A stretch of DNA of 58,077 nt, from the NCBI GenBank assembly GCA_018240325.1, contig JAFEFZ010000255.1, forward strand, positions 1 through 58,077, given 5' to 3'. The first letter of the stretch is position 1; the number at the start of each line of letters is the position of its first letter. This DNA is from Pseudomonadota bacterium. Lineage in GTDB: Bacteria; Pseudomonadota; Gammaproteobacteria; Burkholderiales; Burkholderiaceae_C. Positions 7,001 to 28,968 of the stretch are shown piece after piece. Both the position numbers and the translations under genes were made by a program. A model generated the notes under the pieces. It was not told where the DNA came from and made no database searches. It saw only the letters and a program-made list of their open reading frames with translations.

Positions 7001-7097
7001 GTCGTCGACCGCGCTGACGCTGCTGCTGCTGCCGGCGATGTTCCGGCGCTTCGGTGCAGCGCCGGTGCCCCTTTCCGACGCGGAGGTCCGGACATGA
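4008..7097 (+). CDS. Heavy-metal efflux RND permease (CzcA/CusA family)
   Basis: A 1029-residue inner-membrane RND pump, the proton-driven engine of the tripartite system. It has the usual 12-helix layout with two large periplasmic loops. The fourth helix has the HME signature (MLVDGAVVVVENVE) with Asp401 and Glu408. The position of the second Asp that CzcA has six residues earlier is Ala395 here, as in CusA. The periplasmic QPIDMRISEMLTGVRGD segment looks more like the divalent-metal members. The metal is therefore not resolved. The TGA overlaps the start of the DUF3240 gene (ATGA), implying translational coupling. Confidence 0.93.
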   Translation: MLSRLISFALRQRLLMLVLAAGLTAAGVIAWRGLPIDAFPDVSSTQVKIILKAPGMTPEEVETRITTPIEQELLGIPRQVMLRSISKYALADITLDFEDGTDVYWARQQVGERLAGALKALPPNADGGLAPITTPLGEMFMFTLEGPQPLDEKRYVLDWVLRPALRTLPGVADVNSLGGKVRTFEVVPDPVALLARGVTLAQLQGAIEAGNRNDGAGRLANGEEALIVRAEGAVHELEDLRQTVLRASDGRVVRVGDVAQARAGALTRYGAVTRDGEGEAVQGLVLGLRGANARQVVAAVKSRLAELAPSLPPGMTVVPFYDRSGLVDRAVATVGRALLEAVVLVTLLLLAFLGNLRAAIVVAMMLPLSALGTFVLMRQFGLSANLMSLGGLAIAIGMLVDGAVVVVENVETALARDRTRRQPLLHLVYRAGREVAAPVASGIAIIIIVFLPLLSLQGLEGKLFAPVALTIVFALAVSLLLSLTLVPVLASWLLRSAPAHEPWLVRHLARGYDRVLAWALAHERWVAGVALALFVAAGAVFTQLGNSFMPQLDEGDIIMQLEKLPSIGLEASVALDLRLQRAIRERVPEVKNIVARTGSDELGLDPMGLNQSDTFLVLAPRDQWRRPDKEWLIGELRAVAADFPGVDVGFTQPIDMRISEMLTGVRGDLAVKIYGPDLAALSRLAAQVEAVIAALPGATDTLTQRNEGVQYLQVGIDRLAAGRAGLDAERIQADLRRWIEGEPVGVVHAAGRRTPIVIRGSESLRASPAGFEALRLTTDAGISIPLTAVANLERVDGPVYVAREQAQRFAVVQANVRGRDLVGFVDEARAAVARQVELPAGYALAWGGQFENQQRAARRLAVVIPVALALIAFLLFSTFGSLRQTLLVLLNIPLALVGGVFGLAIAGEYVSVPASVGFIALLGIAVLNGVVLVSHFNQLLAQGMPVAQAAVAGAKRRLRPVMMTAAITAGGLVPLLFATDPGSEIQRPLAIVVIGGLVSSTALTLLLLPAMFRRFGAAPVPLSDAEVRT

Positions 7098-7447
7098 CTG
7101 CCCCTTCGCCCCTGGTCTGCCTGACGCTGCTGCTCCCGGCGAGCGCCGAGGACCGGGTCATTGACTGGCTGCTCGAGCAGCCCGACCGGCCTATCGAGTT
7201 CAGCGTGCATCGGGTGGCGGCGCGCGGGCCGCTGGTGCGGCTTCGGGCCGACGACGAGCAGGTACAGGGCTTCGCCGAGCGCGCGGAGGTCAAGCTGATC
7301 CTGGAGCGCGACCTGTGCCGGTCCCTGGTCAGCTCGCTTCGCGCGCTGCTCGAGGAGGTGGAAGGCGGCTGGTGGACCCTGCCTGTCGAAGCCTTCGGCA
7401 CCTTCGGCCGGCTGTCGGCGCGCGAAGTGGCCGGGGAACGGTCATGA
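7094..7447 (+). CDS. DUF3240 family protein
   Basis: A 117-residue soluble protein of the DUF3240 family, small proteins typically encoded beside heavy-metal RND pumps in betaproteobacteria and of unknown function. Its size and alternating pattern suggest a ferredoxin-like fold, perhaps a PII-like cytoplasmic sensor (inference). A GGAGGT Shine-Dalgarno sits 6 nt before the ATG, and the ATG overlaps the permease stop. Its own stop codon TGA (7445-7447) is the first codon of a tandem 60-bp repeat that separates it from the TolC-like gene. Confidence 0.8.
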   Translation: MTAPSPLVCLTLLLPASAEDRVIDWLLEQPDRPIEFSVHRVAARGPLVRLRADDEQVQGFAERAEVKLILERDLCRSLVSSLRALLEEVEGGWWTLPVEAFGTFGRLSAREVAGERS

Positions 7448-7504
7448 GCCCGCTGGGCCGCCCCAAGGGCGAATACCGCAGGGCGCAGCCCGAAGGTTGC
7501 CCTA
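7445..7504 (+). repeat. 60-bp stop-to-start repeat, tandem unit 1
   Basis: The unit opens with the TGA stop of the DUF3240 gene, contains GGGCCGCCCCAAGGGCGAA and CCGCAGGGCGCAGCCC, and closes with GAAGGT, 6 nt, then A of an ATG. It matches unit 2 at 52 of 60 positions; only 2 of the first 47 differ. It has no internal stop in the TolC frame. Confidence 0.95.
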
Positions 7505-7564
7505 TGACCCCGCCGGGCCGCCCCAAGGGCGAATACCGCAGGGCGCAGCCCGGAGGTACTCCAG
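7505..7564 (+). repeat. 60-bp stop-to-start repeat, tandem unit 2
   Basis: The second copy directly abuts the first. It ends with GGAGGT, a 6-nt spacer and G of the GTG that starts the TolC-like gene, so the element supplies the ribosome binding site and first base of that gene. A third copy lies after aspS (27577-27636). Confidence 0.95.
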
Positions 7565-8841
7565 TGAGCCGCGCATCGCGGTTGCGCGCGGCCGCATGGG
7601 TGCTGGCTGCCCTGCTCGCGGCGCAGGCCCGGGGCGGCAGCCCTTCGGCCGACACCGAGCTGCTGCCGCCCGCGCATGAAGTGGCTGCGGCGCTGGCCGC
7701 CTCACCGCTGTGGCGCGCGGCCGACGAGGCGATCACCGCCGAGCAGGCGTCGCGCCGGCAGGTGCTGGCCGGGCCCTACGAGTGGCTCGGTACCGTGAAC
7801 GTCGGTCAGCGGCACTACCGCGATACCCTGCCGCGCAACGCCATCGAGTGGGAGGCGAGCCTGGAGCGGGCGCTGCGCCTGCCCGGCAAGCGCGACGCGG
7901 CCGACCGGCTGGGCGGCGCGCGCATCGAGCTGGCGCAGGCCCAGCGCAGCCTGACCTGGCGCGAGCAGGCGCGTGCCTTGCTCGAGCGCTACGGAACGTG
8001 GCTTCGGGAACGCGAGGCCGCACGGATCTGGGCCGAGCAGGCCGCCTTGTTGCAGGCGCAGGCTGCGGTGGTGGCCGAACGTCGGCGCCTGGGCGACGCC
8101 GCCCGCCTCGAGCAGGTGCAGGCGGAGGCTGCCGTCGCGCAGGCGCAGGGGCTGGCGGCGGGGGCAGACGCGCGCGCGCGCGCCGCCGGCGATGCGCTTG
8201 CGCGACAGTTCCCGACGCTGGCCTTCCCGCAACCCGCGCGGCTGCCCGATCCGCCGGCTGCGCCGGCCGAGGACGCCGACTGGATCGACGCGCAGCTGGC
8301 CGGGGCCCCGGAGCTGGCTTCGGCGCGGCAGGCCGTGCAGATCGCCGAGGAGCTGTTGCGCATCGAGGAGCTCGAACGGCGTCCCGATCCGACGGTCGGC
8401 TTGCGTGTGGGGCAGGCGCGCGACGCGAACGAGCAGTTCGTCGGCGTGGTGCTCAAGATCCCCTTCGCCGGCGAACACCGCGCGGCGGCCGTCAGCGTGG
8501 CCGCATCGCGCACCGCCGCGGCTGCGCTGCTCCACGACGCGGCCCAGCGGCGTGCGGCGATCGACGCCAGGCTGCGGCTGGACGAAGCCCGGATCGCCTA
8601 TGGCGGCTGGGAGCACGCGCAACTCGCGCTGGACAAGCTCGACCAGGCCGCGCAGGGGCTGGCACGCGGGTACCGGCTCGGCGAAGGCTCGCTGGCCGAG
8701 GTGCTGGCGGCCAGGCGGCTGGCCAATGAGCAGCGCGCCGCGGCCGCTGCTGCCGCCGCCGACGCCTGGGGCGCGCGTTGGCGGCTGATGCTCGAAGCGG
8801 GCCGGCTGTGGGCCTGCCCGGATCCGTGCCCGCGTCCTTGA
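7564..8841 (+). CDS. TolC-family outer membrane efflux protein
   Basis: A 425-residue outer-membrane channel component of the heavy-metal RND system. The GTG start at 7564 is preferred because GGAGGT is 6 nt upstream and a signal peptide follows at once (RLRAAAWVLAALLAAQARG). In-frame ATGs at 7504 and 7444 would add 20 or 40 residues of translated repeat before the signal peptide and probably spoil export. Two outer-membrane-efflux repeats are suggested by long Ala/Glu/Arg helices around residues 130-230 and 330-420. It is the last gene of the adaptor-permease-DUF3240-channel operon. The C-terminus (CPDPCPRP) is unusual in carrying two cysteines. Confidence 0.88.
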   Translation: MSRASRLRAAAWVLAALLAAQARGGSPSADTELLPPAHEVAAALAASPLWRAADEAITAEQASRRQVLAGPYEWLGTVNVGQRHYRDTLPRNAIEWEASLERALRLPGKRDAADRLGGARIELAQAQRSLTWREQARALLERYGTWLREREAARIWAEQAALLQAQAAVVAERRRLGDAARLEQVQAEAAVAQAQGLAAGADARARAAGDALARQFPTLAFPQPARLPDPPAAPAEDADWIDAQLAGAPELASARQAVQIAEELLRIEELERRPDPTVGLRVGQARDANEQFVGVVLKIPFAGEHRAAAVSVAASRTAAAALLHDAAQRRAAIDARLRLDEARIAYGGWEHAQLALDKLDQAAQGLARGYRLGEGSLAEVLAARRLANEQRAAAAAAAADAWGARWRLMLEAGRLWACPDPCPRP

Positions 8842-25773: not shown

Positions 25774-27579
25774 ATGAGAACCAGCTACGGCGGCAGCGTC
25801 AGCGACGCGCTGCTCGGCCAGACCGTCACGCTGATGGGCTGGGCGCACCGCCGCCGCGACCACGGCGGCGTCATCTTCATCGACCTGCGCGACCGCGAGG
25901 GCCTGGTGCAGATCGTCTGCGACCCCGACCGGCCGCAGATGTTCGCCGCCGCCGAGCAGGTGCGCAACGAGTACTGCCTGAAGGTGACCGGCCTGGTGCG
26001 TGCGCGGCCCGCGGGCACCGACAACCCCAACCTGACCAGCGGCAAGGTCGAGGTGCTGTGCCACGAGATCGAGGTGCTGAACCCGAGCGTCGCGCCGCCG
26101 TTCCAGATGGACGACGAGAACCTGTCGGAGACCACGCGCCTGACGCACCGCGTGCTCGACCTGCGCCGCCCGAGCATGCAGCGCAACCTGATGCTGCGCT
26201 ACCGCGTCGCGATGGAGGTGCGCCGCTTCCTCGACCGCAACGGCTTCATCGACATCGAGACGCCGATGCTGACCAAGAGCACGCCCGAGGGCGCGCGCGA
26301 CTACCTGGTCCCGAGCCGCGTGCACGACGGCCAGTTCTTCGCGCTGCCGCAGTCGCCCCAGCTGTTCAAGCAGCTGCTGATGGTGGCCGGCTTCGACCGC
26401 TACTACCAGATCGTCAAGTGCTTCCGCGACGAGGACCTGCGCGCCGACCGCCAGCCCGAGTTCACCCAGATCGACATCGAGACCTCGTTCCTCGGCGAGA
26501 CCGAGATCCGCACGATGTTCGAGGGCATGATCCGCAGCGTGTTCCAGCACGCGATCGGCGTCGAGCTGCCGGCCTTCCCGGTGATGCCCTACGCCGAGGC
26601 GATGGCGCGCTACGGCTCCGACAAGCCCGACCTGCGCGTGCAGCTCGAGCTGACCGAGCTGACCGAGCTGATGCGCGACGTCGACTTCAAGGTCTTCGCC
26701 GCGCCGGCGGCGATGGCCGACGGCCGCGTGGCCGCGCTGCGCGTGCCCGGCGGCGCCGCGATCAGCCGCGGCGAGATCGACGCCTACACCGAGTTCGTCA
26801 AGATCTACGGCGCCAAGGGCCTGGCCTGGATCAAGGTCAACGAGATCGGCGACGGCACGAACCCGGCCGAGCTGCGCGCCGCTCTGCAGTCGCCGATCGT
26901 CAAGAACCTGCACGACCGCGCGCTGGCCGAGATCGTGCGCCGCACCGGCGCGGCCGCCGGCGACCTGCTGCTCTTCGGCGCCGACCGCGCCAAGATCGTC
27001 AACGATGCGATCGGCGCGCTGCGCGTGAAGATCGGCCACAGCGAATTCGGCAAGGCGCACGGCCTGGTCCAGGGCGAGTGGGCGCCGCTGTGGGTGGTCG
27101 ACTTCCCGATGTTCGAGCGCGACGGCGAGGCCGATCGCTGGAACGCGGTGCACCACCCGTTCACCAGCCCGAAGGACGGCCACGAGAACTGGCTCGAGAC
27201 CGACCCCGGCCGCTGCCTGGCCAAGGCCTACGACGTGGTGCTCAACGGCGTCGAGCTCGGCGGCGGCTCGGTGCGGATCCACCGCGCCGAGGTGCAGAGC
27301 AAGGTGTTCCGCGCGCTCAAGATCGGCGCCGAGGAAGCGCAGCTGAAGTTCGGCTTCCTGCTCGACGCGCTGCAGTACGGCGCGCCGCCGCACGGCGGCA
27401 TCGCGATCGGGCTGGACCGCTTCGTGATGCTGATGACCGGCGCCGACTCGCTGCGCGACGTGATCGCGTTCCCGAAGACGCAGCGCGCGCAGTGCCTGCT
27501 GACGGGCGCGCCCGGGCACGTGGACGAGGCGCAATTGCGCGAGCTGCACATCCGGCTGCGCAACGTGCAGCCGGCCTGA
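25774..27579 (+). CDS. aspS: Aspartyl-tRNA synthetase
   Basis: A 601-residue class IIb synthetase that charges tRNA with aspartate (bacterial type). An OB-fold anticodon domain (1-110, [29 protein letters not shown]), the catalytic core with motif 2 ([18 protein letters not shown]), the GAD insertion domain (about 285-420) and motif 3 (GLDRF) are all present. GGAG lies 9 nt before the ATG. Its TGA stop is the first codon of a 60-bp repeat. I cannot judge from sequence whether it also charges tRNA-Asn. Confidence 0.98.
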
Positions 27580-27636
27580 GCCCGCCGGGCCGCCCCAAGG
27601 GCGAACACCGCAGGGCGCAGCCCGAAGGTAGCCCAG
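27577..27636 (+). repeat. 60-bp stop-to-start repeat, third copy, after aspS
   Basis: It starts with the aspS TGA and ends GAAGGT, 6 nt, then G of a GTGA. It matches the tandem unit at 7505-7564 at 55 of 60 positions. No gene follows on this strand; the GTG opens a frame that runs into the 3' end of the opposite gene and does not look coding. Confidence 0.95.
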
Positions 27637-27649
27637 TGAACGCGCGCCG

Positions 27650-27679
27650 GGCTCGGCCCGGCCGCCGTCGGGCCGAGCC
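27650..27679. terminator. Perfect 11-bp hairpin between convergent genes
   Basis: GGCTCGGCCCG (27650-27660), loop GCCGCCGT, then CGGGCCGAGCC (27669-27679). It lies 8 bp before the stop of the minus-strand dehydrogenase and after aspS, so it could end both transcripts. There is no T-run on either side. Confidence 0.55.
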
Positions 27680-27687
27680 TGCGGCCG

Positions 27688-28968
<1,281 letters not shown>

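Follow-up and report, generated by a model that had tools for sequence, protein, structure and literature searches.

Gene arrangement and repeat units at the DUF3240-efflux junction

Within the window, by which is meant the whole 58,077-nucleotide stretch of DNA analysed here, an RND pump gene (PF00873) overlaps a DUF3240 gene by the four bases ATGA (7094-7097), with GGAGGT and a 6-nt spacer in front, and the following junction, between the DUF3240 gene and a gene for an outer-membrane efflux protein, is occupied by two head-to-tail 60-nt units that are identical at 52 of 60 positions. The features concerned, all on the + strand, with their basis in brackets, are:

7094..7447, +, DUF3240 gene, upstream neighbour, with its stop at 7445-7447 (domain match, PF11582, E 2e-16)
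7444..7447, +, ATGA at the 5' boundary, the stop TGA overlapping an ATG (sequence)
7444..7451, +, 5' arm ATGAGCCC of a possible long stem (partner GGGCGAAT at 7467-7474; 6 of 8 pairs here)
7445..7504, +, repeat unit 1, 60 nt, its first three bases being the TGA stop of the DUF3240 gene (sequence, Tandem Repeats Finder, profile)
7481..7491, +, hairpin 2 of unit 1, GGGC-GCA-GCCC (family covariation)
7492..7497, +, Shine-Dalgarno-like GAAGGT of unit 1 (sequence, profile)
7505..7564, +, repeat unit 2, 60 nt, its last base being the first base of the efflux protein GTG (sequence, Tandem Repeats Finder, profile)
7541..7551, +, hairpin 2 of unit 2 (family covariation)
7552..7557, +, Shine-Dalgarno GGAGGT of unit 2, 6 nt 5' of the GTG at 7564 (sequence, profile)
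7564..8841, +, outer-membrane efflux protein gene, possible GTG start at 7564 (domain match, PF02321)
27577..27636, +, third window copy, a single unit on a CTGA stop (core search, profile)

Each unit of the pair opens with TGA; unit 1 closes with GAAGGT, six nucleotides and A, unit 2 with GGAGGT, six nucleotides and G, and TGA follows in both cases. The first-pass annotation of this DNA had placed two 60-bp units exactly between the DUF3240 stop and the efflux (TolC) start, with the layout TGA...GRAGGT-6 nt-RTGA, had stated that their removal would restore an overlap like that at 7094-7097 with the same GGAGGT and 6-nt spacing, and had described the unit as 20 codons without a stop in the downstream frame. 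All of these details are borne out: deletion of 7445-7564 would leave a bare ATGA, and from the ATG at 7444 forty codons run in frame to the GTG at 7564 and continue beyond it. With a score of 207 the pair heads the 27 Tandem Repeats Finder rows for the window, and the family profile, whose training included the window units, scores the two units 85.0 and 87.9 and the copy at 27577-27636 88.5, against a best score of -33 in 10 first-order Markov simulations of the window. The folding energy of the window units is unremarkable (z -0.5 to -1.8). We think that 7564 is the main start at this junction, because the residues directly after it resemble, by eye, a signal peptide.

The third copy was overlooked in the first-pass annotation, as were 40 further core copies elsewhere in the genome; the next called gene after it is on the opposite strand. 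By eye, this copy sits on the stop of an apparent aspartyl-tRNA synthetase gene, and a terminator-like hairpin is visible 3' of it (window 27577-27700).

Size and distribution of the family

A 30-base core allowing up to 3 mismatches identifies 43 copies in this genome, with none for the reversed-pattern control. The core is present in 5 of 300 genomes of the order, this genome counted, in 10 of 200 genomes from the family of G237 (with a slightly different core pattern) and in 10 of 41 near relatives, all ten of this genus, with 42 copies here, 14 in G502, 10 in G504, 6 in G496 and 1-4 in six others; copy counts within the genus range from 0 to 42. Several genomes carry their own sequence variant of the repeat, as if a separate burst had taken place in each. 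A scan of species genomes returned at least 113 stretches; among the matches listed, 103 come from Burkholderiales or betaproteobacteria, with genera such as Rhizobacter, Piscinibacter, Rubrivivax, Achromobacter and Bordetella, which we take to belong there, and the remaining listed matches are 8 from one bacterial bin, 1 'Proteobacteria bacterium' and 1 Pseudoxanthomonas bin. Four plasmid records, from Variovorax and Diaphorobacter, also match. Viral contigs held no exact match to a 26-base pattern, phages and E. coli gave no match to the repeat, and neither 1 kb of the window nor 47 kb from 18 loci with the 60-nt type or the 62-nt type described below gave a relevant match to an Rfam covariance model. 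As with other interspersed repeats, the same sequence stands at unrelated sites and orthologous sites are found empty. The repeat is thus a genuine and widespread family, apparently undescribed as far as the searches reach: the open-access literature, most subscription papers being outside its scope, yielded no description of the repeat or its peptide, while short non-autonomous repeats as such are already known.

Anatomy of the unit and a 62-nt sister family

The profile of the unit, built from 165 distinct units, gives a constant order in which the stop comes first, then the body, and last the Shine-Dalgarno and spacer, giving way to RTGA. The stretch TGAGCCCGCCGGGCCGCCCCAAGGGCGAATACCGGAGTGCGCAGCACGAAGG is strongly conserved save at a few positions, chiefly a covarying hairpin pair and one G/C position, and the last eight bases of the unit (about TACTCCAR), with TGA next, are loosely conserved. 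Directly 5' of the Shine-Dalgarno lies a hairpin of 4 bp with a 3-base loop, hairpin 2 of the list above, whose second pair is T-A in 93, G-C in 46 and C-G in 5 of 154 units and carries by far the highest mutual information within the unit (corrected value 0.70, with 0.11 for the second-ranking pair; computed on all 154 units above the score cut). In an alignment of 76 units of all forms, drawn partly at random and partly by hand from 151 collected units after those of odd length had been set aside, 94% of the hairpin cells are paired, and three of the four pairs show double changes. In the profile the Shine-Dalgarno is conserved about as well as this hairpin.

Hairpin 1 (CGCCC-CAA-GGGCG), considered as a family-wide feature of the 60-nt type, was dropped because 83% of cells are paired and there are no double changes. 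The long stem ATGAGCSC/GSGCTCAT is complete (8/8) in the 62-nt consensus and has two mismatches in most 60-nt units; it is offered as possible only, since its one strongly covarying pair (CG in 38 and GC in 25 of 76 units) may represent a single event.

The 62-nt consensus belongs to a related unit, TGAGCGCGCCGGGCCGCTCCCAAGCGCTCATCCCGGAGCGCGCAGCGCGGAGGGTAGTCCAR followed by TGA, which is found directly behind some 60-nt units and alone elsewhere. This sister family occurs in 20 of 41 genomes, that is in 20 of the 25 of this genus searched, with up to 21 copies (reversed control 0). Its ATGAGCGC is able to pair with an internal GCGCTCAT and its ends are the same as those of the 60-nt type, with the difference that the frame is not kept and a mini-ORF is closed instead. 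The first-pass description of a unit that keeps the downstream frame open is too narrow in this respect.

Position of the arrays at stop and start codons

The 141 distinct arrays comprise 106 single, 26 double, 6 triple and 3 quadruple ones. Their 5' start is TGA in 131 cases (121 ATGA, 6 GTGA, 4 CTGA) and otherwise in 10, and at the expected 3' place, in exact register, GTGA stands in 51, ATGA in 31 and TTGA in 5 (RTGA 82, NTGA 87), the rest being other. A coding-like frame ends on the first TGA of the array in 108 of the 141 arrays, compared with 4.9% of 3435 control ATGA sites drawn from the named loci.

The arrays were excised in silico (loci of this genome and named loci) and genes were then called with a self-trained codon model. 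The caller was tuned over three tries and the third version, which places 88 of 106 sites at a stop or start, was used; the first was rejected as it chose shadow ORFs on the antisense strand (35 of 111 sites at stops or starts) and the second as it joined frames on the mutated 3' TGA (66 of 108). Short flanks, duplicates and seven more Bordetella loci were left out before counting, and the 62-nt counts refer to genomes of this genus. The classes below are given in the order 60-nt sites; the same without five Bordetella loci; ATGA controls; 62-nt sites; 62-nt controls.

Number of sites: 106; 101; 2980; 27; 251
Stop and start: 44; 41; 57; 14; 4
Stop only: 32; 31; 29; 7; 4
Start only: 12; 12; 151; 3; 14
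Intergenic: 14; 13; 276; 3; 21
In a gene, same strand: 4; 4; 1069; 0; 90
In a gene, antisense: 0; 0; 1398; 0; 118

Stop and/or start codons on the same strand accordingly account for 84 of 101 60-nt arrays against 237 of 2980 control ATGA sites, and for 24 of 27 62-nt sites against 22 of 251. The spread of copies without regard to gene junctions that the first-pass annotation named as telling against its proposal is not what is seen, with no copy antisense in a gene. Its picture of an element entering stop-start overlaps, leaving the genes usable and bringing its own Shine-Dalgarno is supported, but was too narrow in one respect: the sites are stops and starts generally, with 41 at both, 31 at a stop only and 12 at a start only, and the copy at 27577 itself lies on a stop. 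At the 31 stop-only sites there is no start to save; in 12 of them the next start lies 56-61 nt further on, as if a decayed unit stood in between, and in 4 there is none within reach. The bases around the target are also selective, with C 5' of ATGA in 106 of 116 array sites against 69 of 112 ordinary ATGA stops, G 3' of it in 84 of 116 against 52 of 112, and a weaker preference for C at the next position after ATGA-G (95 against 71, p 0.002).

Such a distribution might arise with no design for translation, if an ATGA-cutting enzyme inserted the repeat at random at any ATGA and purifying selection cleared the copies from genes. ATGA within genes makes up 83% of controls (2467 of 2980), and insertions there would be mostly harmful and hence removed by selection alone. 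However, intergenic ATGA is as common in the control as ATGA at a stop or start (276 and 237 of 2980), yet arrays divide 13 to 84 of 101 between these classes; the Shine-Dalgarno, moreover, is about as conserved as the hairpin, and the phase of the units is biased (see below). We regard random insertion as unlikely.

Of the four sites within a gene, one is an in-frame copy that adds about 20 extra residues (L051:5230-5300, minus strand), the sole clear intragenic case seen.

Orthologous junctions

A search of 60 genomes of the genus found the DUF3240 gene, besides this genome, in G545, G542 and G547 (a weak match in G541 was left unread). In all three a bare ATGA joins the two frames: its TGA closes the DUF3240 frame and its ATG begins the following one, an efflux gene by position. 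At the phnJ-phnK junction, Variovorax SRS16 carries the repeat at ATGA and V. paradoxus 2u118, with 85% DNA identity over the region, has the bare ATGA; of the 30 relatives listed for this region 8 were read, and six more distant annotated records show a 4-nt overlap in five cases and a 1-nt overlap in one. In Acidovorax T1 phnJ and phnK are separated by a GNAT acetyltransferase gene that overlaps each of them by 4 nt (L338:825-1310), an entire gene set into a stop/start overlap. The third site, at a branched-chain permease gene (L221), has a 4-nt overlap in 0 of 3 distant relatives, which show gaps of 10 and 5 nt and a TGATG (by eye). It thus appears that the repeat entered pre-existing overlaps at two of the three sites, as the first-pass annotation had supposed. 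Orthologous junctions lacking the overlap, the second outcome that it had named as telling against its proposal, are not what is seen at the window site (3/3 with the overlap) or mostly at phnJ-phnK; at the third site the overlap is missing, but in relatives too distant for a judgement.

Two other junctions were compared. In 28 relatives the pheA junction shows no repeat and no uniform ATGA, and at tpiA the motif aligned in only 3 of 25 stretches, one of them this genome, so that it carries little weight. Presence and absence between near-identical genomes was not seen, the nearest empty site being 85% identical.

Reading frame and translation

Where RTGA stands at either end of a unit and a gene starts at its 3' end (138 units, one row per 3' end), length modulo 3 is 0 in 55, 2 in 79 and 1 in 4; unit lengths being inherited, these are not 138 independent tests. 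In phase 0 the frame of the 5' ATG matches that of the gene, in phase 2 the mini-ORF opened by this ATG closes precisely at the RTGA where the new start lies, and in phase 1 a ribosome from the 5' ATG would enter the gene out of frame. Phase 0 or 2 is thus found in 134 of 138 units, and none of those 134 has a premature stop in the start frame. Because of this inheritance, net length changes were compared: the 60-nt type has 13 units one base shorter and 3 one base longer, the 62-nt type 0 and 4 (Fisher p 0.007). This comparison covers 20 units, among which L048, L115 and L139 have a sub-form in common, and L324 and L359, two of the four longer ones, differ by more than one base. The shorter 60-nt units differ in the position of the lost base, apart from three of one sub-form.

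A 5' ATG is present in 122 arrays, 36 of which lack a start codon at the expected 3' place (in some it is merely displaced by one or two bases). From the 5' ATG of 18 of these 36, reading continues in frame through 1-4 units into a coding frame, so that the protein seems to have taken up the peptide GRPKGEYR... there, which bears out the peptide GRPKGEYRSAQ that the first-pass annotation named at protein starts in Comamonadaceae. The annotated PhnK of Variovorax SRS16 begins at the 5' ATG and thereby includes repeat-encoded residues.

Mobility and relation to known repeats

The elements share several properties with REP-like or IS200/IS605-like sequences that a Y1 (RAYT) transposase moves, namely the absence of inverted ends, a hairpin, a fixed strand and a tetranucleotide target, and the ATGAGC of the 62-nt type is complementary to its internal GCTCAT. 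The Y1 transposase family PF01797 does not track the repeat, however, and was rejected as the resident mobiliser. It was not found in this genome (43 copies), in G237, G138 and G240, or in G502 (20 contigs; 43 right-half matches, control 1), G498, G305 (one contig), G359, G467 and G414, each of the last six carrying one or both repeat types. The assembly of this genome is fragmented, and insertion sequences readily drop out of such assemblies, but those of G502 and G305 are not fragmented. It was found in copy-bearing G462, G432, G284, G499, G500, G506 and G512, and also in G503, which has neither type; overall it is present in 1 of 5 and 10 of 26 genomes, both with and without repeat copies. 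Neither a GTAG nor a CGTC tag is present at the ends of the family consensus or the 76-unit alignment. Movement by a Y1 transposase is accordingly quite improbable in our view.

Passages of PMC3733652 describe REP elements (GTAG and CGTC super-families, BIMEs) as short, hairpin-forming, dispersed and mostly outside genes, state that a TAG stop for the neighbouring gene is frequently provided by GTAG REP ends, a point in favour of the Y1 reading, and name the Rickettsia palindromic elements. The 60-nt repeat is likewise short, dispersed, hairpin-forming and mostly outside genes, but whereas a REP can provide a stop at one end, the 60-nt repeat has translation signals at each end, including a Shine-Dalgarno and a start, and its length is constrained; there is neither a GTAG/CGTC tag nor a RAYT linked with the repeat. 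MITEs are short, non-autonomous, multi-copy elements with terminal inverted repeats and target-site duplication. The 60-nt repeat resembles them in the first three properties and differs in its consensus ends, TGAGCCCGCC and TACTCCAR, which are not inverted copies of each other. As to target duplication, TGA stands at the 5' end in 131 and NTGA in register at the 3' end in 87 of 141 arrays; beyond TGA the match between the ends is not significant across the family as a whole (p 0.14), with one position at p 0.001 and 11 nt in L220 and L221. Rickettsia palindromic elements are short mobile repeats that lie inside genes and can be translated as part of the protein. The 60-nt repeat can be translated in the same way, but lies on stop and start codons, an N-terminal extension being one outcome. 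The ends of IS200/IS605 elements and their derivatives form hairpins, use a strand-specific tetranucleotide target and have no inverted ends, all of which the 60-nt repeat shares; in contrast, no transposase gene was seen with these repeat ends, and to our knowledge 60 nt is shorter than any known element of the IS200/IS605 family.

A probable mobile repeat adapted to translation

The family, its boundaries, its site preference, the empty orthologous sites, the hairpin covariation and the phase bias are evident from the sequences, and the family is most likely mobile and adapted to translation. The explanation that we consider probable is that these are non-autonomous mobile repeats of Burkholderiales, about 60-62 nt long, which enter ATGA stop/start sites and are transparent to translation. 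The element would enter on the coding strand at an ATGA (best C-ATGA-G) containing a stop codon, a start codon or the two together. The upstream gene would then keep the same TGA end, the old start ATG would remain in its old surroundings, and a new RTG start at the 3' end would be preceded by the element's own Shine-Dalgarno and hairpin. Length would be held to a phase that spares the gene from out-of-frame ribosomes coming from the old ATG, with 60-nt units adding 20 codons in frame and 62- and 59-nt units producing a mini-ORF whose TGA overlaps the new start. Being transparent to translation, the element would be tolerated, and its copies would survive at junctions and rarely elsewhere. We infer that an enzyme moves the repeat in trans, that ribosomes actually travel in this manner and that selection lies behind the bias in site and phase. 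Points against this explanation are that no mobilising enzyme or terminal inverted repeats were found, that near-identical genomes showed no difference in presence, that some arrays are intergenic, inside a gene or at a stop only, and that the distant relatives read at the permease site lack the overlap.

The conserved Shine-Dalgarno and hairpin, the phase constraint and the arrays of 1-4 units would also suit a regulatory cassette kept for its benefit to the host, tuning the output of the downstream gene through relayed coupling and the hairpin and Shine-Dalgarno. Such a role is very improbable given the patchy presence of the repeat, its absence from the orthologous junctions read and the stop-only copies without a close same-strand gene behind them, such as that at window 27577.

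An insertion into a stop/start overlap is expected to harm at least one of the two genes, and a repeat harmless to both would show that mobile DNA is able to adapt to translation itself. On balance, though by a modest preference, we favour the view that a transparent repeat of this type represents a new class, in which target and body are both translation signals, the start is restored by the element's own Shine-Dalgarno and ribosomes are relayed in a phase-locked manner, through an N-terminal peptide in frame or through a mini-ORF that closes at an RTGA restart; if so, new N-terminal peptides and relayed translational coupling would arise from it across a bacterial order. In the annotation of Burkholderiales proteins, some N-terminal stretches may stem from the repeat, with the true start possibly at least 20 codons further on. 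A natural test bed for reinitiation is provided by junctions that hold from one to four units and cover every phase of unit length.

Related and variant forms

A third form, of 65 nt, occurs at L220:2491-2570 on a Diaphorobacter IncP plasmid and at L221:2491-2570 on a Variovorax replicon. These plasmid copies repeat 11 bases at both ends, TGAGCGACGCG in L220 and TGAGCGCCGCG in L221, which differ between the two loci; this looks like a target duplication or a templated end and may be a clue to the mode of entry. Another junction repeat, with CCCCCTCGGGGGG and GCGCGCAGCGCC..AAGGGGGC, is present in L285, L275, L065 and L104 (for example L285:950-1040), reaches up to ATGA in L285 and L275, and may share a superfamily with the 60-nt family. 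Several units of G502 (L261, L263, L265, L268) have a longer left half with an extra inner hairpin, for instance GGACCCGAAGGGTCCACGCGCGTGGACC in L268.
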